A DNA stretch of 64,000 nucleotides from Aestuariivirga sp. (GTDB lineage Bacteria; Pseudomonadota; Alphaproteobacteria; Rhizobiales; Aestuariivirgaceae): assembly GCF_020252395.1 (NCBI RefSeq), contig NZ_JADCDB010000002.1, positions 186,001 through 250,000 of the forward strand, in the 5' to 3' direction. Below, in pieces: positions 32,639 through 51,450 of this stretch. A program made the position numbers and the translations under genes. Numbering within the stretch: the first letter of the stretch is position 1; each line of letters starts with the position of its first letter. The notes beneath the pieces are model-generated. The model had not been told where the DNA came from. It worked only from the letters and a program-made list of their open reading frames with translations, and ran no database searches.

Positions 32639-32824
32639 CGCAACGGACCTCAGGCGCCCCGCGCTTGAGGGCGGAAAGCTGCGCCAGCTTCGACTCCGGA
32701 GCGTCCTTGGCATCGCAAGCGAGTTCACGCGCGCGCGCGATGCTCTGACGGTCCTCTTGCCTCTTGCGTCCGACTGCAGGGCGGGGAATGCTTGGAGTGC
32801 GTCCATCAGACACTGGCATGGGGC

Positions 32825-33439
32825 ATGCAAGGGCTGCCCGGATGGGACCAGCCCCGGTTCCGCCGTGCCGCCCTGGCACAGGCGAGGGAAGGTGAGGAGT
32901 GTGCTGGCGTGGCGAAGCCCGCGGCGAGACAGGATTGGCATGGCCTTGCGGAAGCCCTCCGCGAGGCACGGCTCGCCGAGGCGGCGCATTTGGAGGCGGC
33001 CCTCGACCTGCGCGACTCCAAGACGCTGCGCCTGCAGATACTGAAGGACGCGCTGCTGCCCGCGGTGCAGTCGACGCCGGAAGCACGCGATCTGTTCGAC
33101 CTCGCGCTGCTACCGGGGGACCCGCCCAGGCTGTGGCTTGACCTGACCGCCTATGTCGTCATGGAGCCGGACCACCGCACCTACCGCGTGCTGCAGGACC
33201 GGCAGGACAGCCGCGACATTCTGTTCGAGGGCGCGGGCGCTGAGCAGGCGGCCGCCGCAATCCGCCGTCACATGGCGCACCGCCTGGTGGCGCGCGAACG
33301 CCGCGGTGCCCTGTCTGGGCCCGTCCCGCAGCTGGGATATAGCTCGGCCACGCTCATCCTGGCGTGGGTTTCGGGCGTTGCCTTCGGGCCCCTGGCGCTG
33401 GTCGCCGCTGCGCTCTATATGGGTCTTCTAAAATATTGA
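32825..33439 (+). CDS. Hypothetical protein with C-terminal membrane helix
   Basis: This protein of about 204 residues begins at the ATG at 32825; a TTG at 32792 is possible, and no good ribosome binding site supports either. The body is charged and mostly helical ('WHGLAEALREARLAEAAHLEAALDLRDSKTLRLQILKDALLP'). It then shows a short segment resembling a conserved core ('LWLDLTAYVVMEPDHRTYRVLQD') and ends in a hydrophobic helix ('LILAWVSGVAFGPLALVAAALYMGLL'). This suggests a tail-anchored membrane protein. I recognise no family. Confidence 0.6.
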   Translation: MQGLPGWDQPRFRRAALAQAREGEECAGVAKPAARQDWHGLAEALREARLAEAAHLEAALDLRDSKTLRLQILKDALLPAVQSTPEARDLFDLALLPGDPPRLWLDLTAYVVMEPDHRTYRVLQDRQDSRDILFEGAGAEQAAAAIRRHMAHRLVARERRGALSGPVPQLGYSSATLILAWVSGVAFGPLALVAAALYMGLLKY

Positions 33440-33607: not shown

Positions 33608-35407
33608 ATGCAGAGCGCTTTGAAGCGGAGCACTGAAGCCGGAACGGCCGGATCGGTTACGCCGACCTCAAACCGCAGCCTCGCCCAGAATCTGGGCGGC
33701 TTCGGCACGCTCGCCGAAGGCCTGGATTATGCAGCCAAGGGCGTCACCGGTTTCAATTTCTATTCTCCGCGCGGCCAGTTGCAAAGTGTGCTGTCCTATG
33801 CCGAGCTGCGCCGGCAGTCGATGTCCACGGCGCGCAAGCTGCTCTCGCTCGGCCTCAAGCGCGGCGACCGTGTTGCCGTGGTCGCCGAGACGGGGCCCGA
33901 ATTCATGGCAGTGTTCTTCGGCTGCCAGTATGCCGGTCTCATTGCCTGCCCGATGCCCTACACCATGTATATCGGCGGCAAGGATTCCTACATCGGCCGC
34001 GTGGCCGGCATGATTGCCGCGGCCAAGGCGCAGACCGTGGTGACGGGCGAAGACCTGCTCGGCCACATCAGCGAGGGTGCGGCCCGTGCGGGCGCCGGCC
34101 GCGTTCTGACCCATGCCGAGCTGCAGGCGCTGCCCGAGGCCGCTGCCAAGCTCGAGCCCTTCAGGGCGAATGAAGACGCCTATATCCAGTATTCCTCGGG
34201 CTCGACGTCGAGCCCCAAGGGCGTGCTGATCTCGCAGAAGGCGATCATGTCCAACACGCGCGGCATTCTGCGCGACGGCATGCGCATCACCCCCGAGGAT
34301 CGCGCCTTCTCCTGGCTGCCGCTCTACCATGACATGGGTCTCGTCGGCCTCTGCCTGTCGGCCGCGATGGGGCAGGTGAGCGTCGATTTCCTGGCAACTG
34401 CGTCCTTCGCACGCCGCCCGGCCCTGTGGCTGAAGCTGATGTCGGACAACAAGTCAACGATCACCTATTCGCCGAGCTTCGGCTATGACCTCGCCGCCCG
34501 CCGCATCAATGGCGAGGCGGTGACGCTCGATCTTTCGCGCCTGCGCATTGCCGGCATCGGCGGTGACATGGTGCGCGCCGACGTGCTGGAAGGCTTCGCG
34601 GCGCATCTCTCCGTCGCCGGCTTCCGCTCGGACGCCTTCCTGCCGAGCTATGGCATGGCCGAGACGACACTGGCCATTTCCTTCATCGACCCGGACAAGC
34701 CGATCCGCGTCGATACAATCGACCGCCATGCGCTGAAGCATGAGGGCCGCGCCGTTCCCGCGCGGGGGTCCCATGCGCGCAGCTTCGTGGTGTGCGGCCG
34801 CCCGATGGAAGGATCGACCGTCGAAATCCGTGACGAGCACGGCGCCGTTCTCGGCCCCCGCGCCGTTGGCCGCATCTTCGTCAACACGCCGAGCCTGATG
34901 ACCGGCTACTACAACAATGATGAGGCGACCGCCGCCGTCGTCGGCCAGGACGGATTCCTCGATACCGGCGACATGGGCTATTGGCTCGACGGCGAGATCG
35001 TGATCACCGGCCGCGCCAAGGACCTGATTCTGCATAATGGCCGCAACATCTGGCCTCAGGACATCGAATGGGCGGCCGAGCAGATCGAGCCGCTGCGCGA
35101 TGGCGATGTCGCCGCATTCGCCGTCGAGAATGACGCGGGCGAAGACGAGGTGACCGTGCTGGTGCAGTGCCGCGCGCGGGACCTGGCCACGGTCGAGGCG
35201 CTGCGGCATGAGGTGTCCGCCGCCGTGCACCGCTCGGCGGGTGTCGAATGCAGGGTTGTCATGGTGCCGCCGAAGAGCCTGCCCTTCACCTCCTCCGGCA
35301 AGCTGTCGCGCGCCGCCGCCAAGCAGAAATTCCTGTCGGGCGAGATCGCCGAATTGTCCCTGCTGACGCTGGCCGCCGGTTCGGACAGCCTCGAAGCCGT
35401 CCACTGA
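33608..35407 (+). CDS. Fatty acyl-AMP ligase / acyl-ACP synthetase for ceramide synthesis
   Basis: This 599-residue ANL-superfamily enzyme is of the fatty acyl-AMP ligase type: P-loop 'YIQYSSGSTSSPKGVLIS', 'WLPLYHDMGLVG', adenine motif 'YGMAETTL', 'DTGDMGYWLDGEIVITGRAKDLIL' and C-terminal lysine in 'TSSGKLSR'. It probably loads a long-chain fatty acid on the carrier protein two genes on. This is the role assigned to the acyl-ACP synthetase in the Caulobacter ceramide cluster, where the same four functions are neighbours. The ATG at 33608 is preferred over a TTG at 33560. Confidence 0.87.
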   Translation: MQSALKRSTEAGTAGSVTPTSNRSLAQNLGGFGTLAEGLDYAAKGVTGFNFYSPRGQLQSVLSYAELRRQSMSTARKLLSLGLKRGDRVAVVAETGPEFMAVFFGCQYAGLIACPMPYTMYIGGKDSYIGRVAGMIAAAKAQTVVTGEDLLGHISEGAARAGAGRVLTHAELQALPEAAAKLEPFRANEDAYIQYSSGSTSSPKGVLISQKAIMSNTRGILRDGMRITPEDRAFSWLPLYHDMGLVGLCLSAAMGQVSVDFLATASFARRPALWLKLMSDNKSTITYSPSFGYDLAARRINGEAVTLDLSRLRIAGIGGDMVRADVLEGFAAHLSVAGFRSDAFLPSYGMAETTLAISFIDPDKPIRVDTIDRHALKHEGRAVPARGSHARSFVVCGRPMEGSTVEIRDEHGAVLGPRAVGRIFVNTPSLMTGYYNNDEATAAVVGQDGFLDTGDMGYWLDGEIVITGRAKDLILHNGRNIWPQDIEWAAEQIEPLRDGDVAAFAVENDAGEDEVTVLVQCRARDLATVEALRHEVSAAVHRSAGVECRVVMVPPKSLPFTSSGKLSRAAAKQKFLSGEIAELSLLTLAAGSDSLEAVH

Positions 35408-35435
35408 GGCGGGTGCGCCCGCCGCAGCGGAATTC

Positions 35436-36404
35436 ATGAGCAAGACCATCGCCATCACCGGCGCCTCCGGATTCGCCGGACGGCACGCCGTTGCCGAACT
35501 TCTGCCGCGCGGCCACCGCCTGCGCGCGCTGCTGCGCAGCCCGGAAACGGCGGGGCTGCCCTCCGCCGTCGAGACGGTGAAGGGCGATCTTGCCGACGCA
35601 GGCGCACTGGCGCGGCTGACGGCGGGGGCGGATGCGGTTGTCCATCTTGCCGGTGCGCTCGCCGCGCTGACCCGCGCGGACTATTTCAAGGTCAACGAAC
35701 AGGGCACGCGGGCGCTGGCCGATGCGGCTCGGGAGGCGGGCGTGCCCCGCTTCGTGCACATCTCCTCGCTCGCCGCGCGCGAGCCGCAGCTTTCGGGCTA
35801 TGCCGACAGCAAACGAGCCGGGGAAGAGATCGTGCTTTCCCGCATGGATGTGCTCAACGCCATCCTCATCCGCCCGCCAGCCGTTTATGGCCCTGGCGAC
35901 AGGGGCACACTGCCGCTGATCAAGGAATTGACCCGGCCCGTGGCCGCCATTCCGGGGCTGGCCGCCGCGCGCTTCTCGCTGATCCACGGGCGCGACCTGG
36001 CCCGCCTGATCGCGCAGGCGGTGGAGGGCGATGCGCAGGGCGTGCACGAGGTGAGCGACGGCAAGCAGGGCGGTTATGGCTGGCCGGATTTGATCCGCAC
36101 GGCGTCCGCCTTCCGTGGCGGCCCGGTGCGGGCCATCTTCCTGCCGCGGGCCGTGCCAGCCGCGGTGGCCACAGTGGCGGAAGGGCTGGCGCGCCTCTCC
36201 GGCAGGGCCTCCATGATCAACCGCGGCAAGATCGCCGAACTCTACCACACTGACTGGGTGGCGCGGCTGGGCGGCCTCGCGCTTCCCGATCCCACCCCGT
36301 TCGACACAGGATTTGCCGAAACCGTGACTTGGTACCGCAAGGCCGGGTGGTTGCCTCCGGGGCGCGGCGCCGATAGAAGAACCGCTAGTTCAAGGACGCC
36401 GTAA
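35436..36404 (+). CDS. cerR: Ceramide reductase CerR-like NAD(P)-dependent epimerase/dehydrogenase
   Basis: This 322-residue extended short-chain dehydrogenase has 'ITGASGFAGRHAVAELL' for NAD(P), a 'VKGDLAD' acidic turn, and catalytic Tyr/Lys in 'SGYADSKRAGEEI'. In Caulobacter the matching gene in the ceramide cluster reduces the 3-keto group of the acylated sphingoid base. The function is transferred from context plus family, since the fold alone would also fit sugar epimerases. It shares one base with the carrier-protein gene (TAATG). Confidence 0.82.
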   Translation: MSKTIAITGASGFAGRHAVAELLPRGHRLRALLRSPETAGLPSAVETVKGDLADAGALARLTAGADAVVHLAGALAALTRADYFKVNEQGTRALADAAREAGVPRFVHISSLAAREPQLSGYADSKRAGEEIVLSRMDVLNAILIRPPAVYGPGDRGTLPLIKELTRPVAAIPGLAAARFSLIHGRDLARLIAQAVEGDAQGVHEVSDGKQGGYGWPDLIRTASAFRGGPVRAIFLPRAVPAAVATVAEGLARLSGRASMINRGKIAELYHTDWVARLGGLALPDPTPFDTGFAETVTWYRKAGWLPPGRGADRRTASSRTP

Positions 36405-36643
36405 TGACCGATACCGTCTCCCAGCTGTGCACGCTGCTCGAACCGTTCAACACCAACGGCACGGCGCTGTCAGCCGCGACCGACATCTCGGCCGACCTCA
36501 ACATCGACTCCGTCACCGTCATGGACTTCGTGATGGAGGTGGAGGATCATTTCGACATCGAGATTCCGCTCAACGTGCTGTCGGAAACGCGGACCGTCGC
36601 TGACCTCGCAAAGGTCGTCGAGGCGCGAACCAGGAAGGGTTAA
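36404..36643 (+). CDS. Specialised acyl carrier protein
   Basis: This 79-residue four-helix carrier has the phosphopantetheine serine in 'DLNIDSVTVMDFVMEVEDHFDIEIP' (DSV instead of the usual DSL). It is placed between the reductase and serine palmitoyltransferase genes, as in Caulobacter, so it most likely presents the fatty acyl chain to serine palmitoyltransferase rather than serving general fatty acid synthesis. Confidence 0.9.
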   Translation: MTDTVSQLCTLLEPFNTNGTALSAATDISADLNIDSVTVMDFVMEVEDHFDIEIPLNVLSETRTVADLAKVVEARTRKG

Positions 36644-36646
36644 GGC

Positions 36647-37855
36647 ATGGACCTGCTCGCCAAGCTCGAAGCGATTGCCCAACGTCATGCCCGCATGAAG
36701 GCGCTGGGCGGCGACGCCGTGGGCGTGGTGAACGAGAAGATCCTCTCGCCCACCCGCGCCATCATCGATGGCCGCGAGACGATCCTCGCCGGCACCAACA
36801 ACTACATGGGCATCACCTTCGATGCCGAGTGCATCGCGGCGGGGCAGAAGGCGCTGGCCGAGTTCGGCACCGGCACCACCGGCTCGCGCATCGCCAACGG
36901 GTCCTATGCGCTGCACACGGAACTGGAGCGGGAATTCGCCCGCTTCCTCGGCCGCAAGCACTGCATCGTCTTCAGCACCGGCTATCAGGCGAATCTCGGC
37001 ATGATGTCGGGTCTCGCGGGCCCGCGCGACACGATCTACCTCGACGCGGACTCGCACAGCTCGATCTATGACGGCTGCACGCTGTCGGGCGCCAAGCTGG
37101 TGCGCTTCCGCCACAATGACGCGGCCGATCTCGACAAGCGTCTGTCGCGGGCCGAGGAGGATGGCGGCGGCAAGCTGGTGGTGCTGGAAGGCATCTATTC
37201 GATGATGGGCGACCGCGCCCCGCTGGCCGATTTCATCGCGGTGAAGAAGAAGCACGGCTTCCAGCTGCTCGTCGACGAGGCGCACAGCTTCGGCGTGCTG
37301 GGCCCCCACGGCCGCGGCCTGGCGGATGAGGCGGGCCTCGAGGACGACGTCGACTTCGTGGTCGGCACCTTCTCCAAAAGCGTGGGCGCCATCGGCGGTT
37401 TCGGCGCGGGCGACCATCCCTATTTCGAATATCTGCGCTTCGCAATGCGGCCATACATGTTCACCGCCTCGTCTTCGCCGGCCTCGATCGCCACCTCGAT
37501 CGCGGCAATCCGCAAGCTCGCCGCCGAGCCGCAGCGGCGCAGGAAACTGGCGGAGAATTCGGCGCGGCTGTTTGAGGGCTTCAAGGCGCTGGGCCTCGAA
37601 CTGGGTTGCGCCGAGGCGAGCCCGGTCGTCGCGGTGCGCTGCCCGGACGAGCCCTCGACCATTGCCATGTGGAATGCGCTGCTGAAAGCGGGCGTCTATG
37701 TCAACATCGCGCTGCCGCCCGGCACGCCCAACAAGCTCTGCCTGCTGCGCTGCTCGGTGTCCGCCGCGCACTCCGGCGCCGACCTCGACCGCATCATCGA
37801 ACTTTTCGGCGCCGTAGTGGCGCAGGGCCATGGCAAGAAGGTGGTGAACGGCTGA
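36647..37855 (+). CDS. spt: Serine palmitoyltransferase
   Basis: This 402-residue alpha-oxoamine synthase has 'GTNNYMGI', 'GTGTTGSRIANGSYALHTELE', cofactor-binding 'DEAHSFGVLGPHGRG' and Schiff-base lysine in 'GTFSKSVGAIGGFGAG'. The 'GTFSKSVG' form and the acyl-carrier-protein and ligase neighbours point to serine palmitoyltransferase (serine plus acyl thioester to 3-keto-sphinganine), not to KBL or AONS. It is last in the operon and converges with the lipid kinase gene, six bases apart. Confidence 0.9.
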   Translation: MDLLAKLEAIAQRHARMKALGGDAVGVVNEKILSPTRAIIDGRETILAGTNNYMGITFDAECIAAGQKALAEFGTGTTGSRIANGSYALHTELEREFARFLGRKHCIVFSTGYQANLGMMSGLAGPRDTIYLDADSHSSIYDGCTLSGAKLVRFRHNDAADLDKRLSRAEEDGGGKLVVLEGIYSMMGDRAPLADFIAVKKKHGFQLLVDEAHSFGVLGPHGRGLADEAGLEDDVDFVVGTFSKSVGAIGGFGAGDHPYFEYLRFAMRPYMFTASSSPASIATSIAAIRKLAAEPQRRRKLAENSARLFEGFKALGLELGCAEASPVVAVRCPDEPSTIAMWNALLKAGVYVNIALPPGTPNKLCLLRCSVSAAHSGADLDRIIELFGAVVAQGHGKKVVNG

Positions 37856-37861
37856 CGCCCG

Positions 37862-38830
37862 TCAGCCGCGGATGAAGGTGAAGAGCGGACCCTTCTCCAG
37901 CCTGAGCGGTTCGCCCGCCGGCGGCGGAAAGAACTCGCCGTCAATGACGAACATCACGTCAGAGGCGACCTCCAGCGCCTCGGCGCAGAAGCTCACCGTG
38001 CCCGGAGGCTTGGCGCCGGTTTCCCCGCCATACATCACCGGCAGGATCCAGCGCAGCACCGGGGGCACGGGGTAGGGAATGACCGTTGTCCGGATCGGCC
38101 CGGTCTTGCCGCCCCAGAAGGGGCTGCAGTTGAGCAGCAGCGTGTCGAGCGTCGTCGACATCTGGAGCAGTTGGGCGCCTTCCGTCATGCGGCGCCCGCC
38201 GGCAGCGACGGCAATCGCATAGGGGCGGTCGAAGCGTTCCGGGTCATCTGCGTCTGGCGCCGCGAAGTGATACTTGCCCACCGCGGTCAGCAGCGTCTTG
38301 GCTACTGCCCACTGGCCCTTCACGCCGCGGTCGTTGAGCGCCTGCTGACAGTGCTGCGTGGCCACCGCAATGGCGCCGGTGCCCACGAACATGCCGTGCC
38401 GCACCTTGCCGTCTCCGGGATTGGCGCAGCGGATGGTGTGGCGCGTGACCAGCGCGGAGGCATTGAGGCTACGTACAAAATCCGACTGCGCGGCAATTGA
38501 GTGGCTGCGGAAGCCCAGGTCGTTGGCGCTGAGGTTGGTGGTGCCATGCGGCAGGAGGCAGATGCGGGGCAGCGCCCGGAATCCGCCGCCCTCGGCGATC
38601 AGCGTCAGGATTTCCTGCGCCGTCCCGTCGCCGGAGCTGATGAACAGGTCCGTCACGCCGTCCCGCGCCATGCGCCCGATCACGTCTTCAAGGTGCTCGA
38701 AGCGATCGAGCAGGCAGAGCGATACGCCGGCGCAGCCGCGCAGCCTCTCGGCCAGCACCTGGCCTTTCCCGTTGCCCCGGCCGGACAGCGGATTGACGAT
38801 CACCCCCGCATGGCGCGGACCCGCCGTCAC
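37862..38830 (-). CDS. Lipid kinase of the DAGK/LCB5 family, probable ceramide kinase
   Basis: This 322-residue protein has a diacylglycerol-kinase catalytic domain: 'GVIVNPLSGRGNGKG' at the start, nucleotide loop 'FISSGDGTAQEIL' (GGDGT in most), 'LLPHGTTNLSANDLG', and a C-terminal beta domain with 'FVIDGEFF'. The start is a GTG at 38830 overlapping the LptG stop codon by four bases. Caulobacter makes ceramide phosphate with a kinase of this family encoded beside its spt genes, so ceramide is the likely substrate; diacylglycerol remains possible. Confidence 0.82.
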   Translation of the reverse strand: MTAGPRHAGVIVNPLSGRGNGKGQVLAERLRGCAGVSLCLLDRFEHLEDVIGRMARDGVTDLFISSGDGTAQEILTLIAEGGGFRALPRICLLPHGTTNLSANDLGFRSHSIAAQSDFVRSLNASALVTRHTIRCANPGDGKVRHGMFVGTGAIAVATQHCQQALNDRGVKGQWAVAKTLLTAVGKYHFAAPDADDPERFDRPYAIAVAAGGRRMTEGAQLLQMSTTLDTLLLNCSPFWGGKTGPIRTTVIPYPVPPVLRWILPVMYGGETGAKPPGTVSFCAEALEVASDVMFVIDGEFFPPPAGEPLRLEKGPLFTFIRG

Positions 38831-39903
38831 ACCGTCTCCGACCGGAGCGTCATGACCACGGCCAGCGAGCCGAAGGCGAGGATCGGCAGCCACGCGGCCA
38901 GCCAAGGCTTGACGAAGCCGAGTTCGCCCATGGTGAGCGCTATTCCGTCGACGATGAAATAGACGAAGCCGAGGCCCACCCCCACCGCGAAGAGTGCGCC
39001 CAGCCCGCCGCCGCGGCGGAAGCGCGTGGCGAGCGGAATGCACAGCCCCATCATCAGGAGGCTGGAAAAGAACAGCGAAATGCGTTTGTTGGCCCATGTC
39101 TGGTAAACCCAAACGGGACGGATGCCGAATCCCTGATTGTCGATGAAGTAGAGGAGCTCCGTCAGCGCCATGTCCTCCGGCGCGCCGGAGCGTGCACCGG
39201 CCTGCGCCGGTTTCATGTTGCCGGAATAGACGAGGGCCGCCAGCCGCGACGGCTGAAGATTGTCGCGGTAGTAGACGAGCACGCCGGTCAGCGTCCAGCG
39301 GCCGTCCGCGAGTTCGGCGCTCCTGGCGTAGATCTGTTCGTGCAGCAGACCCTGACCGTCGCGCCGGAAAATGATGACGTTGTCGAGTTTGGTCGAGTCG
39401 GCATTGGCGCCGGCGGCGCGCAGAATGTCCGGACCGGCGCGCATCCAGATCGGGTCCTTCTCGCCCATCTTCAGTTTCTCCACGCCATAATCGCCGATGC
39501 CCCAGTCGCGCAGCTGCGGCGTGGTTGCGGGAATGGCGGAGTCCGACAACACAAAGTTGATGCCGCCCGCCAGGAAGGCCAGCGGCAGCAGCATGGCGAT
39601 GAGGCGCCCCGGCGACACGCCCGCCGCCCACATTGCCGCCATCTCGTTGCGGTAGCTCAGTTCGGTAAGGCTGAGCAGCATGGCGAGCAGCATGGAAATG
39701 CCCATGTAGTTCACCAGCACGCCGGGCGCGCGGTAGAGCATGTACTTCAGCAGGATCGTCATGTCGCCAGGGCGCAGCGCCTGCAGGTCCTTGGCGTTGG
39801 TGAGCACGTCCAGCGACAGCACGAAGAACGAGATGCCGAGCAGGATGCCGAAGAAGCGGATCGCCACCATGCGGTTAAGCATCCAGCCGAGGATTTTCAT
39901 CAT
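38827..39903 (-). CDS. lptG: LptG-family permease
   Basis: This 358-residue protein has the LptF/LptG layout: transmembrane helices at about 8-30, 55-80 and 95-120, a periplasmic beta-jellyroll (about 130-265), then three helices. Family segments include 'YMGISMLLAMLLSLTELSYRNEMAAMWAAGVSPGRL' and 'LCIPLATRF'. With LptF and LptB it extracts lipopolysaccharide from the inner membrane. Here it is coupled by overlaps to LptF upstream and a lipid kinase downstream, which suggests a paralogue serving the sphingolipid made by this locus. Confidence 0.85.
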   Translation of the reverse strand: MMKILGWMLNRMVAIRFFGILLGISFFVLSLDVLTNAKDLQALRPGDMTILLKYMLYRAPGVLVNYMGISMLLAMLLSLTELSYRNEMAAMWAAGVSPGRLIAMLLPLAFLAGGINFVLSDSAIPATTPQLRDWGIGDYGVEKLKMGEKDPIWMRAGPDILRAAGANADSTKLDNVIIFRRDGQGLLHEQIYARSAELADGRWTLTGVLVYYRDNLQPSRLAALVYSGNMKPAQAGARSGAPEDMALTELLYFIDNQGFGIRPVWVYQTWANKRISLFFSSLLMMGLCIPLATRFRRGGGLGALFAVGVGLGFVYFIVDGIALTMGELGFVKPWLAAWLPILAFGSLAVVMTLRSETV

Positions 39904-41120
39904 GTCGAGGCTCCCCATCCGAGGCGGCGCACCAAGAAATGGCGCAGGCTCCCGAGGAAGTCTCCCGTCCGGTCGATGACGGCGCCCACCGGGTCGTTGC
40001 GCAGCGTGAAGCAGGCGTCAAAGTAGCGCCACGCGGCAAACAGCGCCAGCAGCAGGCACGGCAGCCACATGGTGATCAGCGGCGATGCAACGCCTTGGTT
40101 GGCGAGCGACGCGCCGTGGTGGATGATCTCGTTGTAGACGACGATCAACACCAGCGCGACGCCGGTGCGGAAGCCGCGCGCGCTGCGCCGGTTGCCCACC
40201 GCGAAGGGAATGGCGAGATAGGGCAGGATGAGGATGCTCACAGCCATCACCAGCCGCTCGCTGAGCTCCGATCTGACATTCTCGCGGTTGGCCTTGGGCG
40301 GCGGATTGTCGAGCGCGGAGACGAGTTCGGTCAGCGTCAGCTCGCGCTCGTCCTCGCCGCGCGGGCGGAAGATGTCCTTCGAGATGCGGCCGAGCGGCGT
40401 GTCGGCGAGCGCGAACTCGGTCGCCTCGCCGATGGCCGGATCGGCCGCGCCGGCATCGGGCGCCGTCTTGAAGGTGAGGCGGTGGCCATCCTCAAGGTGG
40501 AGCGTGGGGCGCTGGCCCGCCGGGCTCTCGAGCAGGCGGCCGCGTGAGGCGGTGACAGTGTCGGAGCCGTTGTCGCCCTTGTTCTCGTAGATGAAGACGT
40601 GTTCGAAGGAGTTGGCGGCGCGGTCGAGTTTGTCGATGATGAATGTGCGGCCGCCCGCCTGCATGAACACGCCTTCCTCGGCGAGGTAGAAGACCTCGAC
40701 GTTCTGCACGTCGAAGACCACCGAGCGGTAGGCATAGCGGGCATAGGGCTGGAGCCAGCCCATGACGACGAGCGAAATCAGGCTGATGGCCACGCCCATC
40801 AGGATCACCGGCCTTGCCATGCGGTTCAGGCCGATGCCGGAGGCCATGAAGGCGTCGGTCTCGGAATTGGCTGACATCTTGCCGAAGCCCAGCAGCAGGC
40901 CGAGGAAAAGCGCGGCGGGCAGTGCGGTGCCGAGATAGTGCGGCACCAGGTAGGCCAGCATCTCGAAAACCACGGAAAAGGAGTTCTTCTTGCCCAGCGT
41001 AGTGTCGAGCAGGCGCACCATGCGGTCGGCCAGCAGCATCAGCAAGCCGATCACCAGTGCCCCGGCGAGGGGCAGCGACACTTGCCGCATGACGTGCCTG
41101 TCGACGATGGGGAGCAGCAA
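39900..41120 (-). CDS. lptF: LptF-family permease
   Basis: This 406-residue partner of LptG has six helices and a periplasmic jellyroll (about 135-265, 'VEVFYLAEEGVFMQAGGRTFIID'). 'GFGKMSANSETDAFMASGIGLNRMARPV' is the LptF cytoplasmic coupling loop toward LptB. It overlaps lptG by four bases. The start is a TTG with GGAAG 11 bases before it. In most relatives lptFG sit next to lptD, surA, pdxA and ksgA, none of which is here. Confidence 0.85.
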   Translation of the reverse strand: MLLPIVDRHVMRQVSLPLAGALVIGLLMLLADRMVRLLDTTLGKKNSFSVVFEMLAYLVPHYLGTALPAALFLGLLLGFGKMSANSETDAFMASGIGLNRMARPVILMGVAISLISLVVMGWLQPYARYAYRSVVFDVQNVEVFYLAEEGVFMQAGGRTFIIDKLDRAANSFEHVFIYENKGDNGSDTVTASRGRLLESPAGQRPTLHLEDGHRLTFKTAPDAGAADPAIGEATEFALADTPLGRISKDIFRPRGEDERELTLTELVSALDNPPPKANRENVRSELSERLVMAVSILILPYLAIPFAVGNRRSARGFRTGVALVLIVVYNEIIHHGASLANQGVASPLITMWLPCLLLALFAAWRYFDACFTLRNDPVGAVIDRTGDFLGSLRHFLVRRLGWGAST

Positions 41121-41185
41121 GATGTTTTCAGCTTCCGGAGGGGAGGTTACGCATCAAAGTCTGCAACTTAGCCACCCCCCGCTCA

Positions 41186-42109
41186 CTAAGAAAGGGCGAA
41201 TTCGGCGAGCGGCGCCACCTCCCGGCTGGCCGGGTCATAGCCGCGGATCGAGACGTCGATCTGCCATTTTCCCGCCTGGCGCTGGATGCGGTAGAGATTC
41301 CAGGCGGCCAGCGGGTGGCGCCGGTTCTGAGCCGCCGAGGCCGAGGGCACGCCCAGCACATGCACCACGCCGAAACGGGAAAGGAAGCTATTTGCCATGT
41401 GCTGGTGGTTGTGGCCGTGAAGCACCAGCTCCGCACCTTGGTCCTCCAGCACGGCGCGCAGGAGGCTTGAGTCGATCAGCGCCTTGCGCGGTTGGGCGAG
41501 GCCGGGGAGCGGCGGGTGGTGGATCATCACCACCCGGGCATAACCGCGTTCGCGCAGGTCCCGCAGCAGTTGAGAAAGCGAATTCAGCTGCGTGCCGCCA
41601 AGCTGGCCCGCAGCGCGGTGCAGCGGCTGCGGCACGCCGGTCGACAGGCCGATCAGCGCCACGTTGCGCCGGAGACGCACATAGGGGAAGGGTGTCAGGA
41701 TCTGCGGCGTCTCCTGGGTGAGGTTCACCCGCATGTCGCCCTGCATATAGGGCTCGAGGTGCGAGAGACCGTGTTCCCAGGCCATACGCACGTAGCAATC
41801 ATGGTTGCCCGGCACGAAGCTGATCCAGTCGGCCGCGCCGAAGGTCTTCATCCAGCGCGCCGCGGCGGCGAACTCCGCGCGCGCAGCGACGTTCACGAGA
41901 TCGCCCGTGACAGCAACGTGGTCGGGCGCACTGCGCACGATGTCGGCGGCGATGGCGAGCGCCACGGCGGGGCTGTGCACGCGGTGGCGCCTGAGCCGCC
42001 AGTTCATCACGCCGATGGCGCGCTTGAAGGCAAAATGACGGTGCGCCGCGCCCGCCGGCAGGGGCCCAAGATGCAGGTCGGAGAGATGGGCGAGGGAAAA
42101 CACGGACAC
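41186..42109 (-). CDS. Calcineurin-like metallophosphoesterase
   Basis: This 307-residue phosphoesterase has all metal motifs: 'LAHLSDLHLGPL', 'VTGDLVN', 'VPGNHDC', 'IHHPPL' and 'LHGHNHQH'. The family covers UDP-diacylglucosamine hydrolases, cyclic-nucleotide phosphodiesterases and lipid phosphatases. Its place between LptF and the ceramide synthase homologue makes a phosphorylated or nucleotide-linked lipid a fair guess, nothing more. The GTG at 42109 follows GGAAG at six bases. Confidence 0.82.
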   Translation of the reverse strand: MSVFSLAHLSDLHLGPLPAGAAHRHFAFKRAIGVMNWRLRRHRVHSPAVALAIAADIVRSAPDHVAVTGDLVNVAARAEFAAAARWMKTFGAADWISFVPGNHDCYVRMAWEHGLSHLEPYMQGDMRVNLTQETPQILTPFPYVRLRRNVALIGLSTGVPQPLHRAAGQLGGTQLNSLSQLLRDLRERGYARVVMIHHPPLPGLAQPRKALIDSSLLRAVLEDQGAELVLHGHNHQHMANSFLSRFGVVHVLGVPSASAAQNRRHPLAAWNLYRIQRQAGKWQIDVSIRGYDPASREVAPLAEFALS

Positions 42110-42174
42110 GGCGGACTTCCGGCTGACGGACAAATGTTAAGGCGCAGCGCCCCGCTGCCTGATGCGGGTAGCGC

Positions 42175-43317
42175 CTAACCGATTAACTTCTCATAAATCC
42201 GGTAGGTCTTGTAGGGCCGGCCGCCAAAGCTCTCGATCATGCGGCGCATCGGCATGTTGTCCTCGAGGATCCACGAGGCCTCGCCACGCCTGGTGCCGCG
42301 GCCGGCGTGATAGGACCAGACCCGCGCGATCGCCGCCATGCCGAGCACCGCCCCCAGCGCCGTGCCGTGATACTTCCGGCGCAGCCCCATCAGCGGCATG
42401 CGAACAGACCGGGGCGGCCTGGCGAACAGCTGCCAGGCCAGCTTGGCCCAGCCGAAGGGCAGCAGCCGGCCATTGAGGCCGGCGATCCAGTCGTTGATGT
42501 TGGGCAGCGTGATGGCCATGGCCGCCGGCTCACCCTTGTATTCGGCGATCGCAATGTAGTCGCCCGTCACCAGCATCTTGAGATTGTTGGCGAGCGCCGT
42601 CATCTCCTCCCTGGTCCAGGGCACGAAGCCCCAGTTGCCGGACCACGCGTCGTTGGCGATGGAGACGACGATCTCCAGCTCCTTCATGAGCTGCTTCTTG
42701 TCGAGCGGGCGCAGCACCACGTCGGGGTCAGCCATCGCCTTGTCATGGGCCGACGCGAGGGCGCGCGGCATGCCGCCCTGGCCGATGAAGTCGTAGGCGA
42801 TTATGTCCTTCGCCTTGACGAAGCCCGTCTCCTCGAGGCGCGGGCCGTAATAGGGCAGGGCGTGGCTCATCATCACCGAGGGTGGCGTATCGAAGCCTTC
42901 GATCAGCAGGCCCGTCTCGTCGTTGATCGAGAAGCTGAACGGGCCCTGGATAGCCGTGGCGCCGCGCTGCTTCAGCCAGGCCTCCGCCGCATCGAATAGC
43001 GCGGCGAACACCGCCGGATCGTCCTCCGCTTCGAGAAAGCCGAACTGCCCGACGCCATCCCTGTAGCGTTCGCTGCGCAGGCGGCTCAGCTGCGCCGAGA
43101 TGCGGCCCACCGGCCTGCCGCCGCGCAGCGCGAGGAAGAGCTCAACCTCGGCATGGCGGAAATAGGGATTCTTCTTTGGGTCGAGATGCTCAAGGCGCTC
43201 CAGGTGGAGTGGCGCAACCCAGTTCGGGTCACCGGCGTAGAGCGCGAACGGCAAGCCAAGGAAGGCCTTGAGGTCTTCCTTGCCGCGGGCCGGGCGCACG
43301 GTGACGGATGAATCCAT
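42175..43317 (-). CDS. Bacterial ceramide synthase homologue (GNAT-fold acyltransferase)
   Basis: This 380-residue protein resembles the large GNAT-related acyltransferase shown in Caulobacter to N-acylate the sphingoid base. Visible segments are 'DPNWVAPLHLERLEHLDPKKNPYFRHAEVELFLALR' in part, 'GPFSFSINDETGLLIEGFDTPPSVMMSHALPYY', and 'ASWILEDNMPMRRMIESFGGRPYKTYRIYEK', the last being the acyl-CoA-binding end of GNAT folds. It completes the ceramide pathway. The ATG at 43317 is chosen; ATG 43344 and TTG 43353 also lie in frame, none with a clear ribosome site. Confidence 0.78.
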   Translation of the reverse strand: MDSSVTVRPARGKEDLKAFLGLPFALYAGDPNWVAPLHLERLEHLDPKKNPYFRHAEVELFLALRGGRPVGRISAQLSRLRSERYRDGVGQFGFLEAEDDPAVFAALFDAAEAWLKQRGATAIQGPFSFSINDETGLLIEGFDTPPSVMMSHALPYYGPRLEETGFVKAKDIIAYDFIGQGGMPRALASAHDKAMADPDVVLRPLDKKQLMKELEIVVSIANDAWSGNWGFVPWTREEMTALANNLKMLVTGDYIAIAEYKGEPAAMAITLPNINDWIAGLNGRLLPFGWAKLAWQLFARPPRSVRMPLMGLRRKYHGTALGAVLGMAAIARVWSYHAGRGTRRGEASWILEDNMPMRRMIESFGGRPYKTYRIYEKLIG

Positions 43318-43390
43318 GTCACAAGGCTTAACAAGCGCCACCATGGAACTCAAGCTTGGCGGGAGGCGCGCCAGGCGCTAACCACATGCT

Positions 43391-44099: not shown

Positions 44100-44663
44100 A
44101 TGCGTGGCCCCATCGCCCTTCACGACACCACCTCCGCGGACCATGATACGATTGAACTCCTGCTCGACCTCGCTTTCGGCTCCGGCCGGCGCGGCAAAAC
44201 AACCTATCGCCTGCGCGAGGCGAACAGCCCGGTCCCCGGCCTGTCACTGGTGACGCGGGACAAGGGCGTGGACGTCTCCGGCACCATCAGCTTCTGGCCG
44301 CTGGCGATCGGCGACAAGCGGTCGCCCGCCCTGCTGCTGGGGCCGCTTGCCGTGCACCCAGACCGGCAGGGGCTGGGCATCGGACTCAGCCTGATGCAGG
44401 AGGGGCTCGCCCGCGCGAGGGCCCAGGGCCATGGCCTCGTGCTGCTGGTGGGTGATGAGCCCTATTATGCCAAGGTGGGCTTCGCAAAGCTGCCGGAGGG
44501 GCTGATCAGCCTGCCGGGGCCGGTCGATCCGGCACGATTTCTCTATCTGGAGCTCACGCCCGGTGCGCTTCGGGGCGTCCAGGGCCTGGCGCAGGCGCCG
44601 GGCTTAGCGGCCCTCGCGGTACCACATGCCGCCCAGAGCCAGCAGCAGCGCTGCGAGGCTTAG
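44100..44663 (+). CDS. GNAT N-acetyltransferase, YhbS type
   Basis: This 187-residue acetyltransferase has the acetyl-CoA loop 'LAVHPDRQGLGIGLSLM' and the YhbS hallmark 'VLLVGDEPYYAKVGF'. The ATG at 44100 fits the family start. Its last 60 bases overlap the convergent membrane-protein gene, an unusually deep overlap that may reflect a lost stop codon and a C-terminal extension ('AQSQQQRCEA'). Confidence 0.8.
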   Translation: MRGPIALHDTTSADHDTIELLLDLAFGSGRRGKTTYRLREANSPVPGLSLVTRDKGVDVSGTISFWPLAIGDKRSPALLLGPLAVHPDRQGLGIGLSLMQEGLARARAQGHGLVLLVGDEPYYAKVGFAKLPEGLISLPGPVDPARFLYLELTPGALRGVQGLAQAPGLAALAVPHAAQSQQQRCEA

Positions 44664-46664
44664 CAGCGTCGCGAAGAGCGGCGTGTCAGACACGGCGAGC
44701 ACCCGAAAGCTATTATTGGCGCGCAGCCCGATCCAGCCGGAGCCCGCCATCTGGCGGGCCGCCTCCACCTTGACAAGCTGCGGCATGCCGTCCTCAAGCC
44801 ACGCGGTGCTGCCGCCGGTCGCCTTCGCCACGGGGGCCAGAACCGCAGTGGTTGCAAGCAGGTTCCCCATCTCACGCGCATCGCCGTTGCCGGTGGCGGC
44901 CACCGAGACGAGCTCGCCGTCGGTCAAGCGATGGAGCCCCGCTTCGGTCACCGGCAGCGCGCCCTGGAAACGGCCGGGGGACACCTGGTTCAGCGTCACC
45001 GTCGCGGTCTTGCCCGAGGGCAGCGTCACCTCGACGGGCTCCGCGCTGTCGGCCATGGTGCGGCGTTCGATCGTCAGGTTGTTGCCCTGCTGCTTCGCCG
45101 TCAGTGCCTCTTCCTCGAGGTCGGGCTCCTCCATCAGCCAGTGGGCGAGACGGCGCAGGAGTTCGGTCTGCGGCCCTCCGCCTTCGAAGCCTCGCGCCCA
45201 CAGCCAGCCCTGGTCGGAGAGGAGCTGCGCCACACGGCCCTTGTCCTGGCGCGAGAGCACGAGCAGCGGCTTGCCCGCCGGACCCGACATCAAGGTCTCG
45301 CCCGATTGGGTGGTGATGGTATCGACCAGACGGAACCAGCGGCCCCATGTCGGGCTGCTGCCGGCAGAGTCGGGCAGGTCCTTGGTGACGGGGTGTTTCT
45401 GGCCCTGTCCGGTGAGCTCCGGCCTGAAGGGACTCTCCACCACGTTGCCCGTCGGGATCGCCGCCATGATGTCGGAGAGCGGTGTCGAATAGAGCCCGTC
45501 ATCGGCCGCGAGGTCGGGCCCCGAGGCGATCAGCACCGCGCCGCCGTTCCTCACATATTGCGCGATGTTGAACATATAGGCTTCGGGCAGCACCGACTGG
45601 CGGCGATAGCGGTCGAAGATCACGAGATCGAACTGGTCGAGCTTGTCGACGAACAGCTCGCGCGTCGGGAAGGCGATGAGCGCCAGTTCCTTGGTCGGCG
45701 TCCCGTCCTGCTTTTCTGGAGGGCGGAGAATGGTGAAGTGCACGAGATCAACAGAGGCATCGGCTTTCAGCAGATTGCGCCAGGTGCGCTCGCCCGGGTG
45801 CGGCTCGCCCGAGACAAGCAATACGCGCAGCCGGTCGCGCACGCCCTCGATGACGGCGACGGCGCGGTTGTTCTGGAACGAGATCTCGCCATCGAGCGGG
45901 GGTGCTGCGATCTCCACGATGTTCTGTCCGGCATGATCGACATTGACGGGCACATCGATGGTTTCGCCGGGCGAGACGTCGACTGTCACCGGCGCTCCGC
46001 CGCCTGCCGAGATGGCAACGGGCACTGGCTGGCCCGGTCCATTCGTTTCGTCGAGGCGGAAGGAGATCGTCTGCTGCTGGCCCACCATGCCGAAGCGCGG
46101 CGCCTTTTCGATGACAATTCGGCGGTCCTTCTCGGACTTCGAGCCGGTGATCAGCGCATGAAGCGGTCCGCCGATGCCGCTCTTGGAGGGAACCTGCGGC
46201 ACGTCATGCACTTCGCCGTCGGTGATCATGATGGCGCCGGCAAAGCGGTTGGGCGCAATGTCGGCGAGCGCGCGGTTCAGCACGTCGAAGGCGCGCGTGC
46301 CCTCATCCCCGCTGCTGGCGCTCGACGTCACCTCGACGGTTCGGATCTCGGTGTTTGGCAGCCGCCCGATGGCCTGGTTCAGCGCCGCGAGGGCCTCATC
46401 GGTGCGCCTGGTCCGGGCTTCGCTCCCCTGGCTTAATGAGCGGTCGACGACCGCCACGGCGATGTCGGGAAGCGGTTGGCGCTCCTCGCTGCGGATCACC
46501 GGGTTGGCGAGCGCCGCCAGCAGCAGCGCGAAGGACAGCGCGCGCAGAAGCGTGCCCCGGGCGCGCGCCGCCGCGAGCGCCGCGATCAGCGCGCAGCCCA
46601 GCATGGCGGCGGCCGCGATCACCGCCGAGGGCAGCACGGGTTCTAAGGCGAGGCTCCAGTCCAT
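44604..46664 (-). CDS. Large membrane protein with VWA-like and amidotransferase-like parts
   Basis: This 686-residue protein has two N-terminal helices (about 14-32, 39-55), a degenerate von Willebrand A-like region ('IAVAVVDRSLS', 'GAIMITDGEVHDVP') and a central Rossmann-like region resembling class I glutamine amidotransferases ('LVIFDRYRRQSVLPEAY', 'GGAVLIASGPD') without a catalytic cysteine. A final transmembrane helix ('LFATLLSLAALLLALGGMW') ends it. It is last in the MoxR-DUF58-DUF4159 operon and shares one base with the gene before it. These operons occur in many alphaproteobacteria; their role is unclear. Confidence 0.75.
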   Translation of the reverse strand: MDWSLALEPVLPSAVIAAAAMLGCALIAALAAARARGTLLRALSFALLLAALANPVIRSEERQPLPDIAVAVVDRSLSQGSEARTRRTDEALAALNQAIGRLPNTEIRTVEVTSSASSGDEGTRAFDVLNRALADIAPNRFAGAIMITDGEVHDVPQVPSKSGIGGPLHALITGSKSEKDRRIVIEKAPRFGMVGQQQTISFRLDETNGPGQPVPVAISAGGGAPVTVDVSPGETIDVPVNVDHAGQNIVEIAAPPLDGEISFQNNRAVAVIEGVRDRLRVLLVSGEPHPGERTWRNLLKADASVDLVHFTILRPPEKQDGTPTKELALIAFPTRELFVDKLDQFDLVIFDRYRRQSVLPEAYMFNIAQYVRNGGAVLIASGPDLAADDGLYSTPLSDIMAAIPTGNVVESPFRPELTGQGQKHPVTKDLPDSAGSSPTWGRWFRLVDTITTQSGETLMSGPAGKPLLVLSRQDKGRVAQLLSDQGWLWARGFEGGGPQTELLRRLAHWLMEEPDLEEEALTAKQQGNNLTIERRTMADSAEPVEVTLPSGKTATVTLNQVSPGRFQGALPVTEAGLHRLTDGELVSVAATGNGDAREMGNLLATTAVLAPVAKATGGSTAWLEDGMPQLVKVEAARQMAGSGWIGLRANNSFRVLAVSDTPLFATLLSLAALLLALGGMWYREGR

Positions 46665-49450
46665 TACTGCCCAAGCCTTTCGAGAAGGTCGGGCACATGC
46701 ACCTGGTCGGCCTTGTAGTTGCCGGTCAGCGCATACATCACGATGTTGATGCCGGTGCGGAAAGCGAACTCACGTTGCCGGTCGGTTCCGGGAACCGCAG
46801 CGTAGAGCGGGTCGCCGTTCACGTCCATCGCCCAGGCGGCGGCATAGTCGTTGTAGCCGATGATGATGCCGCTCACGCCATCGGTGTTGCCGGTGGCCGC
46901 ACCCTCACTGTCGGACCTTTCGACCCACAGCTTGCCGCCGTCATAGCGGCCGGGGAAGCGATCCAGCAGGTAGAAGCTCTTGGTCAGCACGTGTGAGGGC
47001 GGCACGGGCTCGAGCGGCGGAATGTCGAGCTTGTCGAGGATGCGGCGCAGCGCCTCCGAGGCCGCGGTGGCGCCCCCCGACAGCGCGTCGCTGCTGGCGC
47101 CATCATCGCGCAGGTCGAAGAAGATGGTGCCGCCGCCTTTCATGTACGCGTCCATCTTGGCCAGCGCCGCATCGGATGGCACGGTGGCCTCAGCGCGCAC
47201 CGGCCAATAGAGCAACGGGAAAAAGACGAGTTCATCCTTCTCGATATTGATTCCGGTGGGATCGCCGACATTGACCGAGGTGCGCTCGCGCAGCATTTCG
47301 CCCAGGCCCTTTAGGCCTTCCTCGCTGATGCCGTCGATCCCGGCATCGCCGGTCTTCACATAGGCAAGGTGCGTCTCCAGCGCGCCCCGCATGGCGAAAT
47401 CGTCGCTTGCCTGCGCGCGCAGCGGCTGCCAGCTGGCGGCAAGGGCAAGCGCCATGAGCGCGGCGGTGGCCGCGCGGCGCTGGCGGAGCCGCGCCAGGCC
47501 GCCGCCAAGCAACAGTGCGGCACAGCAGTCGGCGAGGAAGGCCAGCATGGCCAGCGCGAAGGCATAAGGCGCAAGCGGCAGGGCGGGCAGCGGTTCCAGC
47601 GCGCGCTGCGCGATGCCCGCGGGCAGTGCGGAGATGGCGGCAAGCCCCGTTCCCTCCTGCGTCAGGTTGATGGCGCGTTCCTGTTCGCCGCGGCGGTAAA
47701 GGCCGGGCGGTGTTGCCGGCGACGGGTTCAGCTTGTCGATCTGTGCTGCCGGGATCGGCCGGGTGTCGGGCGAGGGGCTGATGAGTTCGCCGAAGCCATC
47801 GAGCGCTTGGAAGGGCGCAAAGGCCTGTGCATCGGAACTGGCCTCGGTCTTGATGCCGCTTCCTGCCGCGGGTGCGAGGTCCAGCACCCGGCGCAGCATT
47901 TCGACGAAGAGGCCGGAGACCGGCAAGTTCGACCAGTCGGCATTGGCGGTAACGTGGAACAGCACAACAAGCCCCTTGCCATCCCTCCTGGCGGTGACCA
48001 GGGGCGTGCCGTCGCCGAGGCTCGCCCACACCCTGCCGGGAAGGTCCGAGTCGGGTTCGGCCAGGACCTGCCGGACCACCTTCACCGAGGGATCGGATGC
48101 GAGGCCCGCGAAGGGCCCCTTCCCGGGGAAGGGCTGCATGGGCTGCGGCGTTTCCCAGCTCAGCGCGCTGCCGAGCGAGCGGTCGCCCGCGCGTAGCGTC
48201 ACCGGCACGAGCGAATCTTGCGCGCCTGCAAAGCGCGGACCGGCGAAGCGAAGGAGCACGCCGCCCTTCCCGACCCAGCGCGCGATCATCTCCTGCTGCT
48301 CGCCCGGCAGCACGCCGATGTCGGCGAGCACCAGCATGGACAGGCCCTGATCGAGCAGGCTCTTCAGCGCCGCCGTGTCCTTCGGCTGGCTCAGTTCGGC
48401 ATAGGGTTCTAGCGCGCGCGAGACATAGTAAAGAGGAGCCAGCAGCGGCTCCGCCCCCTCGGCGGTAGTGCCGGACATGAGGCCCACGGTCTTCCGCCGC
48501 CAGCGGTCATCCATGAGGAATGTGGTTGCGGCATTGTGTTCGTCCTTCACGCTGATGCGGCTCACCTCATTGCGCAGTTCGGTCGGCAGTTCGATCATGC
48601 CCCCGGCGGAAGTGGCGCCCGCGGCAAAATTCACTGTCACGTCGCCGAAGCTGCGGCCATTGCCGGCGGTTGCGGCGACCGGCACGGACCGGGCGGCCCC
48701 ACCAGGCGCCCGCAGCACGGTGACCTTGATGCTGCCGCCCTCGAAGCGCGGCGCGGCGAGCGCCATGGGAAGCTGCGCCATTGACGGCATGATCGCCTCA
48801 ACGGTGGCGGAGCCTTTGGCGAGTTTCTTGAGCCCCGCCGCGAAATCCTGCGCCTTGCCGTCATCGATGCCGTCGGCGATCCACACCACGTGCAGCGCGT
48901 CCTGCTGGCCGAAGGCCTGGTCGAGCCGCTGCAGCAGGCCCGTGCGATCGGGGCCGAAGGCACGCGGCTGCAGAGCTGCGGCGCGGCTCTGAAGGTCGGC
49001 CGCGGACTTGGGCTCCAGCGCCTGCGGCCGGAGTTCGGGGGTGGAGGTGGCGAGCGTTACCGTGGCGCCGCCCGCGGCGGCATCGTCCAGCACTTCGGCC
49101 ATCACCGCGAGACGCTGGTCCCAGTCCTTCGCGGCCGCCCAGCTGTCATCGACCACGAGCAGCACCGGCGTCCTGGTGAGCGCGCCTGTGCGGCCTGGCG
49201 CATAGAGCGGATGCGACACGCCGATGATAACGAGAGCGGCCAGCGCAAGCCGCAGCAGCAGCAGCCACCACGGCGTCTTGTCCGGCTGTTCCTCGCGGTT
49301 CCTGAGGCCCAGCAGCAGGCGGATCGCCGGGAAGCGCACCGTCTCTGGCCTGGGCGGCGTGAAGCGCAAAAGCCACCAGATCACCGGCAGCAGCAGCAGA
49401 GCGGCAAGTGCCAGTGGCGTGCCGAAGGTTATGGCGCTGAGCATGCTCAT
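46664..49450 (-). CDS. BatA/DUF4159-domain membrane protein
   Basis: This 928-residue protein has an N-terminal BatA-type membrane segment ('LALAALLLLPVIWWLLRFTPPRPETVRFPAI'), then a second helix. A VWA-like domain follows ('VLLVVDDSWAAAKDW', 'VVWIADGIDDG'), then a long beta-rich middle, helices near 635-690, and a C-terminal DUF4159 domain (about 700-925, 'FFPLLYWPVRAEA', 'GGTIFFDLRDDG'). The VWA metal motif DxSxS is reduced to DDSWA. It overlaps the DUF58 gene by four bases. Confidence 0.82.
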   Translation of the reverse strand: MSMLSAITFGTPLALAALLLLPVIWWLLRFTPPRPETVRFPAIRLLLGLRNREEQPDKTPWWLLLLRLALAALVIIGVSHPLYAPGRTGALTRTPVLLVVDDSWAAAKDWDQRLAVMAEVLDDAAAGGATVTLATSTPELRPQALEPKSAADLQSRAAALQPRAFGPDRTGLLQRLDQAFGQQDALHVVWIADGIDDGKAQDFAAGLKKLAKGSATVEAIMPSMAQLPMALAAPRFEGGSIKVTVLRAPGGAARSVPVAATAGNGRSFGDVTVNFAAGATSAGGMIELPTELRNEVSRISVKDEHNAATTFLMDDRWRRKTVGLMSGTTAEGAEPLLAPLYYVSRALEPYAELSQPKDTAALKSLLDQGLSMLVLADIGVLPGEQQEMIARWVGKGGVLLRFAGPRFAGAQDSLVPVTLRAGDRSLGSALSWETPQPMQPFPGKGPFAGLASDPSVKVVRQVLAEPDSDLPGRVWASLGDGTPLVTARRDGKGLVVLFHVTANADWSNLPVSGLFVEMLRRVLDLAPAAGSGIKTEASSDAQAFAPFQALDGFGELISPSPDTRPIPAAQIDKLNPSPATPPGLYRRGEQERAINLTQEGTGLAAISALPAGIAQRALEPLPALPLAPYAFALAMLAFLADCCAALLLGGGLARLRQRRAATAALMALALAASWQPLRAQASDDFAMRGALETHLAYVKTGDAGIDGISEEGLKGLGEMLRERTSVNVGDPTGINIEKDELVFFPLLYWPVRAEATVPSDAALAKMDAYMKGGGTIFFDLRDDGASSDALSGGATAASEALRRILDKLDIPPLEPVPPSHVLTKSFYLLDRFPGRYDGGKLWVERSDSEGAATGNTDGVSGIIIGYNDYAAAWAMDVNGDPLYAAVPGTDRQREFAFRTGINIVMYALTGNYKADQVHVPDLLERLGQ

Positions 49451-50325: not shown

Positions 50326-50329
50326 CAGA

Positions 50330-51328: not shown

Positions 51329-51450
51329 GGCACTCACTAGAGTAAGATTCGGCCCCCGGCGGGCCCGTTCAATTGATTTGATCCTTGCCGGGCGAGAATG
51401 GCCTAAAAGAGGCGCGAAGGACAGTCCGACTCAACTGTAATGACGCGAAA

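Follow-up and report, generated by a model that had tools for sequence, protein, structure and literature searches.

The window analyzed here is a stretch of 64,000 nucleotides from an Aestuariivirga sp. (contig NZ_JADCDB010000002.1, positions 186,001 to 250,000), which belongs to contig 12 of a 46-contig, 3.49 Mb genome denoted G000 (other G-numbers are comparison genomes and L-numbers comparison loci). It contains a ceramide (sphingolipid) biosynthesis locus at positions 33608–43353, in a genus that appears to have lost lipopolysaccharide (LPS). All nine genes named in the original prediction, which was made from the sequence of the window, are present as open frames in a single block of about 10 kb, as had been proposed, with neighboring genes overlapping or located 3–65 bases apart. 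The order on the plus strand is aasR-cerR-acpR-spt, and the convergent minus-strand genes are cerS, phosphoesterase, lptF, lptG and lipid kinase:

33608–35407, plus strand: AasR-like fatty acyl-AMP ligase (acyl-ACP, i.e., acyl carrier protein, synthetase); NF006624, 750 bits, cut-off 600
35436–36404, plus strand: CerR-like NAD(P)-dependent reductase of the NAD-dependent epimerase type; PF01370, 95.9 bits
36404–36643, plus strand: AcpR-like acyl carrier protein; PF00550, 39.8 bits, DSV site at residue 35
36647–37855, plus strand: Spt, serine palmitoyltransferase; NF047599, 588.6 bits, cut-off 500, TFSK motif at residue 241
37862–38845, minus strand: CpgB-like lipid kinase (DAGK_cat), predicted ceramide kinase; PF00781, 48.3 bits, SGDGT motif
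38827–39918, minus strand: LptG-family permease of the ceramide locus; PF03739, 193.5 bits
39900–41120, minus strand: LptF-family permease of the ceramide locus; PF03739, 226.5 bits
41186–42133, minus strand: metallophosphoesterase, of the CC_1158 type by family and by position in related clusters; PF00149, 47.5 bits
42175–43353, minus strand: CerS, bacterial ceramide synthase homolog (tandem GNAT); homology and structure model

The gene identities are well supported by family models, motifs and homology, and so is the completeness of the ceramide gene set (aasR, cerR, acpR, spt and cerS), in which acpR lies immediately upstream of spt. The closest solved chain to Spt is a serine palmitoyltransferase (2x8u, 451 bits), and under the bioF model the protein fails the cut-off (316.6 bits, cut-off 426), as it likewise does for Kbl. 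In a tree of 86 sequences, in which the program flags long branches for BioF and one of the paralogs, Spt belongs to the serine palmitoyltransferase clade, outside which lie the E. coli proteins BioF and Kbl and two paralogs from G000 (support 100/100). In view of the tree and the NCBIfam scores, its assignment to the Kbl and 8-amino-7-oxononanoate synthase enzymes was rejected. The nearest named Spt loci are those of Aestuariivirga sp. (L027, 94%), Aestuariivirga litoralis KCTC 52945 (L015, 93%) and a metagenome-assembled genome (L016, 93%), which places the organism, as far as Spt shows, in or close to Aestuariivirga (Hyphomicrobiales).

The other end of the block encodes a protein that has no Pfam or NCBIfam match but is homologous to YghO of E. 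coli BL21 (44% identity, 326 bits) and to CerS of Phenylobacterium (47%, 330 bits). Its structure model (mean predicted local distance difference test score, pLDDT, 82.8; predicted template modeling score, pTM, 0.83) has tandem GNAT acetyltransferases as the best Foldseek matches (E 6e-14; template modeling score 0.52–0.60 by query length among the first 15 matches), in line with the predicted GNAT-fold ceramide synthase. By sequence, no relative was found in the PDB up to E 1 besides the designed protein 7on7, a meaningless match of only 33 residues.

The remaining plus-strand products are similar to their counterparts in the spt cluster of E. coli BL21, namely the fatty acyl-AMP ligase (42% identity, 468 bits), the reductase (38%, 179 bits) and the acyl carrier protein (42%, 50 bits), the last identified by Pfam, the DSV motif and tblastn. 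In Caulobacter, CerR has been assigned to the periplasm, and whether acylation or reduction comes first is disputed (PMC11087976; here and below, papers are cited by PMC number and for excerpts of their text). The N-terminus of the window CerR opens straight with the NAD-binding glycine motif and, in a simple hydropathy scan, has no strongly hydrophobic stretch, features with no obvious fit to a periplasmic location.

On the minus strand, the kinase aligns with the kinases of related clusters at 22–78% identity and is probably a ceramide kinase, judging by family and position; a sequence search of the PDB yields only a weak relative (E 0.037). The phosphoesterase has the motifs DLH, GDLVN, GNHD and HGHNH and shares 43% identity (204 bits) with its counterpart in the Phenylobacterium cluster, and again only a weak relative is found by sequence in the PDB (E 6e-5).

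The block is a recurrent one. In 59 of the 80 named Spt loci, the sequence covers 7 kb or more past Spt, and 43 of these belong to the 58-row Spt clade that includes the window. LptG, the phosphoesterase and CerS are encoded downstream of Spt in 35 of the 43 clade loci, and five further loci have LptG and the phosphoesterase, with no CerS within the 10 kb examined; only L032, L040 and L063 do not carry this set. Such recurrence across relatives is far beyond chance. Five loci (L045, L046, L051, L055 and L057) have an LptG match downstream of Spt and no LptF or kinase match.

The locus type itself is already known from Caulobacter. As in the CC_1168–CC_1152 region of Caulobacter crescentus, aasR, cerR, acpR and spt are found together, genes for a ceramide kinase, a phosphoesterase and an additional LptF/LptG pair are present, and cerS forms a separate unit (PMC11324152). 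In the window, cerS is convergent with the other four ceramide genes and hence belongs to a separate transcription unit, which is also what PMC11324152 states for cerS. The proposal that the same functions are all needed for ceramide synthesis in Caulobacter stands in part. Five genes are needed there for dihydroceramide. CC_1160 (CpgB) is a ceramide kinase and CC_1158, with its phosphoesterase domain, contributes to headgroup formation; CC_1161 is needed for ceramide phosphoglycerate, and the second phosphoglycerate depends on CC_1159, CC_1153 and CC_1152 (PMC11324152, PMC10331486, PMC12275187). For CC_1156 and CC_1155, the second copies of LptF and LptG, a role in sphingolipid transport is proposed only (PMC11324152). 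Caulobacter sequences were represented in our comparisons by the Phenylobacterium loci L085 and L088, and the gene set of the window corresponds to that of the published Caulobacter locus.

The spt cluster of E. coli BL21(DE3) (L002), the serine palmitoyltransferase and acyl carrier protein of which have been tested (PMC9386255), also combines the five ceramide genes with an lptF-lptG pair in one stretch. It differs in having no kinase or phosphoesterase homolog and no match to the window LptF and LptG at 1e-4. In Sphingomonas wittichii, the ceramide genes are scattered over six distant regions (PMC11324152), whereas those of Aestuariivirga, which belongs to a different bacterial order, form one 10 kb block.

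What is new is the setting of the locus. It occurs in a genus that is apparently LPS-free and in which a close relative of the organism has been cultured, it encodes a permease pair together with the ceramide genes, and its headgroup pathway is reduced. The original prediction had missed the apparent absence of LPS from the genus, the disappearance of the LptFG pair beside LptD and the lack of ceramide-phosphoglycerate genes. Our searches of the open-license literature brought up no account of sphingolipids or of LPS loss in Aestuariivirga. The only paper found to contain both 'Aestuariivirga' and 'sphingolipid' is a study of a soil community that mentions each word once, and the excerpted text of PMC8555084 has no mention of LPS, lipid A, sphingo, ceramide or phosphatidylcholine.

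The markers of LPS biosynthesis were compared across 61 genomes, i.e., G000, 36 others of the same genus and 24 from other families of the order. LpxC was found in none of the 37 genomes of the genus and is present in 22 of the 24 other families, where it scores 312–349 bits; it was also not found in G040 and G050. Both controls, E. coli and Caulobacter vibrioides, which we take to be the same species as C. crescentus, are LpxC-positive, in contrast to Aestuariivirga. LpxB and WaaA were likewise found in 0 of the 37 genomes and are each present in 19 of the 24 other families (LpxB was also not found in G040, G042, G045, G050 and G052, and WaaA in G040, G041, G043, G050 and G059). LptD was found in 60 of the 61 genomes and is missing from no member of the genus, whereas LptC was found in 35 of its 37 members. 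Spt passes the cut-off in 33 genomes of the genus; of the remaining four, G033 and G010 have Spt fragments, and G012 and G035 have a completeness of 79% and 74%, respectively. Among the other families, Spt passes in G040, G042 and G050 only, with G055 at 467 bits.

With three families absent from 37 of 37 genomes of 66–100% completeness, an assembly gap in one genome was rejected as the explanation. The genus thus appears to have lost LPS, as judged by three markers of lipid A and 3-deoxy-D-manno-octulosonic acid (Kdo) biosynthesis, LpxC, LpxB and WaaA; LpxA, LpxD, LpxH and LpxK were not searched. It is very improbable that the genus still makes LPS through divergent or unrecognized enzymes. 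Such a possibility would fit with the retention of LptC and LptD, but would have to accommodate the absence of three families from every genome, against the high LpxC scores in 22 other families, and the loss of the LptFG pair beside LptD. In G042, G045 and G052, LpxC is present and the LpxB model is silent, which points to an assembly gap or another LpxB.

Of the 22 LpxC-positive genomes, 18 have an LptFG pair no more than 5 kb from LptD, compared to none of the 39 LpxC-negative ones (read by eye). The four exceptions are G043, with one gene beside LptD, G041 and G045, in which LptFG and LptD are on separate contigs, and G059, which matches neither. The gene order in G037 and G042 is pepA, lptF, lptG, lptD, surA, pdxA, ksgA, whereas G000 has pepA, lptD, surA, pdxA, ksgA without the lptFG pair; G050 is organized as G000 up to the contig end, and G040 has lptD, surA, pdxA and ksgA, with no pepA in the stretch. 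The only adjacent lptF-lptG pair in G000 is the one in the ceramide locus. In G042 and G055, where Spt and LpxC occur together, one LptFG pair is encoded beside LptD and another near Spt.

Sequence comparison points in the same direction for LptF. The window LptF is 33% identical (157 bits) to the LptF of the Phenylobacterium cluster and 22–23% identical (49–63 bits) to the canonical LptF of two relatives, and is thus closer to the cluster type, LptF2. The two types differ little in their similarity to the window LptG, with 77 bits to the Phenylobacterium cluster protein vs. 63–64 bits (22–26% identity) to those of two LPS-positive relatives. These patterns can be read as two lipids served by two permeases, such that the loss of LPS would take the LPS pair with it.

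We consider it likely that these bacteria make a ceramide-1-phosphate-type sphingolipid, with a headgroup other than diphosphoglycerate, that is exported by a dedicated Lpt permease and replaces LPS. AasR would load a fatty acid onto AcpR, and Spt would condense the AcpR-bound fatty acid with serine. CerS would then attach the second acyl chain and CerR would reduce the keto group, yielding dihydroceramide, possibly in this order, and the CpgB-like kinase would convert the ceramide to ceramide-1-phosphate. The LptF-LptG pair of the locus would feed the sphingolipid into the Lpt bridge, of which LptC and LptD are kept, and the sphingolipid would take the place of lipid A in the outer membrane. 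Similarly, Sphingomonas has glycosphingolipids in place of LPS (PMC11087976). The excerpted text of PMC11324152 states, for Caulobacter, that the route of sphingolipids to the bacterial outer membrane is not known. G000 isolates this question, being apparently LPS-free and having its sole adjacent LptF-LptG pair in the ceramide locus; if it indeed makes no LPS, its Lpt traffic cannot be LPS. A. litoralis KCTC 52945 (L015) is a close relative available in culture.

Several observations weigh against this scenario. The LptFG encoded in the E. coli BL21 cluster, from an LpxC-positive organism, is distant from the window pair and no closer to it than canonical LptFG (43–47 bits). G000 has a third, lone LptF-like gene on contig 28 (L095:6029-7162), which at 32% identity and 174 bits is nearer to the window LptF than is the Phenylobacterium LptF (157 bits). 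In G036, the LptFG pair is on a contig other than the Spt contig, G050 has four matches, and in G006 a second LptD is accompanied by a single LptF-like gene. In eight further genomes of the genus (G003, G013, G016, G020–G023 and G033) there are only unpaired LptFG matches on different contigs. Furthermore, three LpxC-positive genomes have no LpxB and three have no WaaA, so that the absence of a single family is no proof of LPS loss. The lone gene at L095:6029-7162 is flanked by an EPSP synthase gene and a 331-amino acid frame without a family.

The LptFG genes outside the locus in some genomes of the genus, along with the statement on sphingolipid transport in PMC11324152, would also be compatible with the export of some other lipid by the locus LptFG, the link with ceramide being mere genomic neighborhood. 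This seems improbable, given that lptFG genes are co-located with cerS in the Phenylobacterium and Stella clusters as well, that the E. coli BL21 cluster includes an annotated lptF-lptG pair, and that the locus pair stays where the LptD-side pair and the lipid A genes are gone.

The locus of the window differs from its Caulobacter counterpart in headgroup genes, the names of which we assigned by family, order and published description, not by Caulobacter sequence. Many loci of Hyphomicrobiales carry the Caulobacter-type set, i.e., CpgC, the kinase, the CDP-alcohol transferase CpgA, a HIT protein (CC_1157 type), the phosphoesterase, CpgD and a CC_1153-type nucleotidyltransferase. The window and nine named loci (L015–L019, L021, L022, L027 and L075) form one clade (support 99/95) with a compact locus in which no CpgC, CpgA, HIT, CpgD or CC_1153 matches were found. 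The sister of this clade, L020, carries all five missing genes, and the simplest account is one loss at the base of the compact clade. Relocation of CpgA or CpgC was rejected as genome-wide searches of G000 revealed no CpgC match and no CpgA ortholog (short hits of at most 35.6 bits, compared to 496–711 for cluster members). For CpgD and the CC_1153-type nucleotidyltransferase, the search covered only the window, which yielded no match below E 0.01. Within the genus, CpgC is found, and CpgA scores above 490 bits, in 14 of the 37 genomes each.

LpxC is absent from all 37 genomes regardless of the headgroup genes. Provided that diphosphoglycerate ceramide requires CpgA and CpgC, as it does in Caulobacter, this headgroup would be dispensable for LPS-free life here. 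In LPS-depleted Caulobacter, by contrast, diphosphoglycerate ceramide has a role (PMC12275187). Headgroup genes have been lost unevenly within the genus, which hints at the lipid parts that an LPS-free outer membrane can spare.

The kinase gene is retained next to lptG in the window and in all nine named loci of the compact clade, and is matched in 29 of the 37 genomes of the genus, G000 included. For the other eight genomes, all LpxC-negative and six with a completeness of at least 90%, no kinase match was obtained at E 1e-8, which is another point against our reading and indicates that phosphorylation is not needed everywhere. Similarly, nine of the 59 loci keep LptG, the phosphoesterase and CerS and have no kinase. 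These cases, along with the glycosphingolipids of Sphingomonas, fit with a scheme in which ceramide is made but receives its final headgroup, a sugar or another group, from enzymes encoded elsewhere, the kinase being a side branch. We regard this as rather unlikely, given that the window and the nine loci of the compact clade retain the kinase gene despite the loss of five other cluster genes, although among alternative headgroups, glycosylation by genes elsewhere is the most likely one. In G034, a second kinase gene adjoins CpgC (contig 13:56828-58639), away from the ceramide locus on contig 69, and G034 has no CpgA ortholog.

Returning to the replacement of LPS by a phosphorylated ceramide, we compared Spt with LpxC across 387 alphaproteobacterial genomes at least 90% complete (Spt threshold E ≤1e-110, at most four candidates scored per genome). 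Spt is present in 56 genomes and LpxC missing in 47, with 33 genomes in both groups, spread over 12 families. LpxC is thus absent from 33 of the 56 Spt-positive genomes vs. 14 of the 331 Spt-negative ones (Fisher p = 6e-22, with no correction for kinship; Spt and LpxC were matched by eye, and 27 of the 47 LpxC-negative genomes were deduced as missing from the 340 listed positives). Contrasts within families are a better control than these class-wide counts. LpxC is missing from the Spt-positive genomes of families f50, f91 and f104 (1, 2 and 1, respectively) and present in the Spt-negative genomes of these families (1, 3 and 4). On the opposing side, 23 of the 56 Spt-positive genomes retain LpxC, and Spt alone is therefore no predictor of loss; Spt-positive members keep LpxC in other families, e.g., f48, f54, f68 and f134. 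These observations suggest that the ceramide locus may permit, rather than force, the loss of LPS. A broader proposal, which we put forward only tentatively, is that the Lpt bridge switched its substrate in Aestuariivirga, with lipid A, Kdo transfer and the LPS-specific LptFG being lost and a sphingolipid-specific LptFG supplying the remaining LptC/LptD, that the lipid is a minimal one of the ceramide-1-phosphate type, able to sustain an LPS-free outer membrane in the absence of the diphosphoglycerate headgroup, and that the ceramide locus has permitted repeated loss of LPS across Alphaproteobacteria.

Upstream of aasR, on the plus strand, a conserved small frame without a known family is aligned from position 32945 to 33439 with L024:6284-6802 (52% identity over 166 amino acids). 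Its start codon is not fixed, 32945 being the alignment start and 32792–33439 the full open frame; no Pfam match was obtained for the latter or for the L024 homolog, which has a hydrophobic stretch at its end. The frame is matched in 42 of the 93 loci searched and ends 168 bases before aasR, on the same strand. It is possibly a new pathway partner, assigned to the locus by position only.

On the other side of the ceramide locus, at 44604–51337 on the minus strand, genes for a MoxR AAA protein, a DUF58 protein, a BatA/DUF4159 protein and a 686-amino acid protein are encoded in a row, and the 686-amino acid gene and a 928-amino acid gene adjoin the ceramide locus in many relatives too. The phosphatidylcholine synthase (Pcs) that the original prediction had placed in the same genome is represented by a Pcs-like gene (10034–10843, plus strand), the best match of which is indeed the phosphatidylcholine synthase model, at a score (212 bits) below the model cut-off of 300. 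Elsewhere in the window, on the plus strand, PgsA is encoded after uvrC (57338–57925) and an ACR3 arsenite efflux gene is located at 59691–60737.

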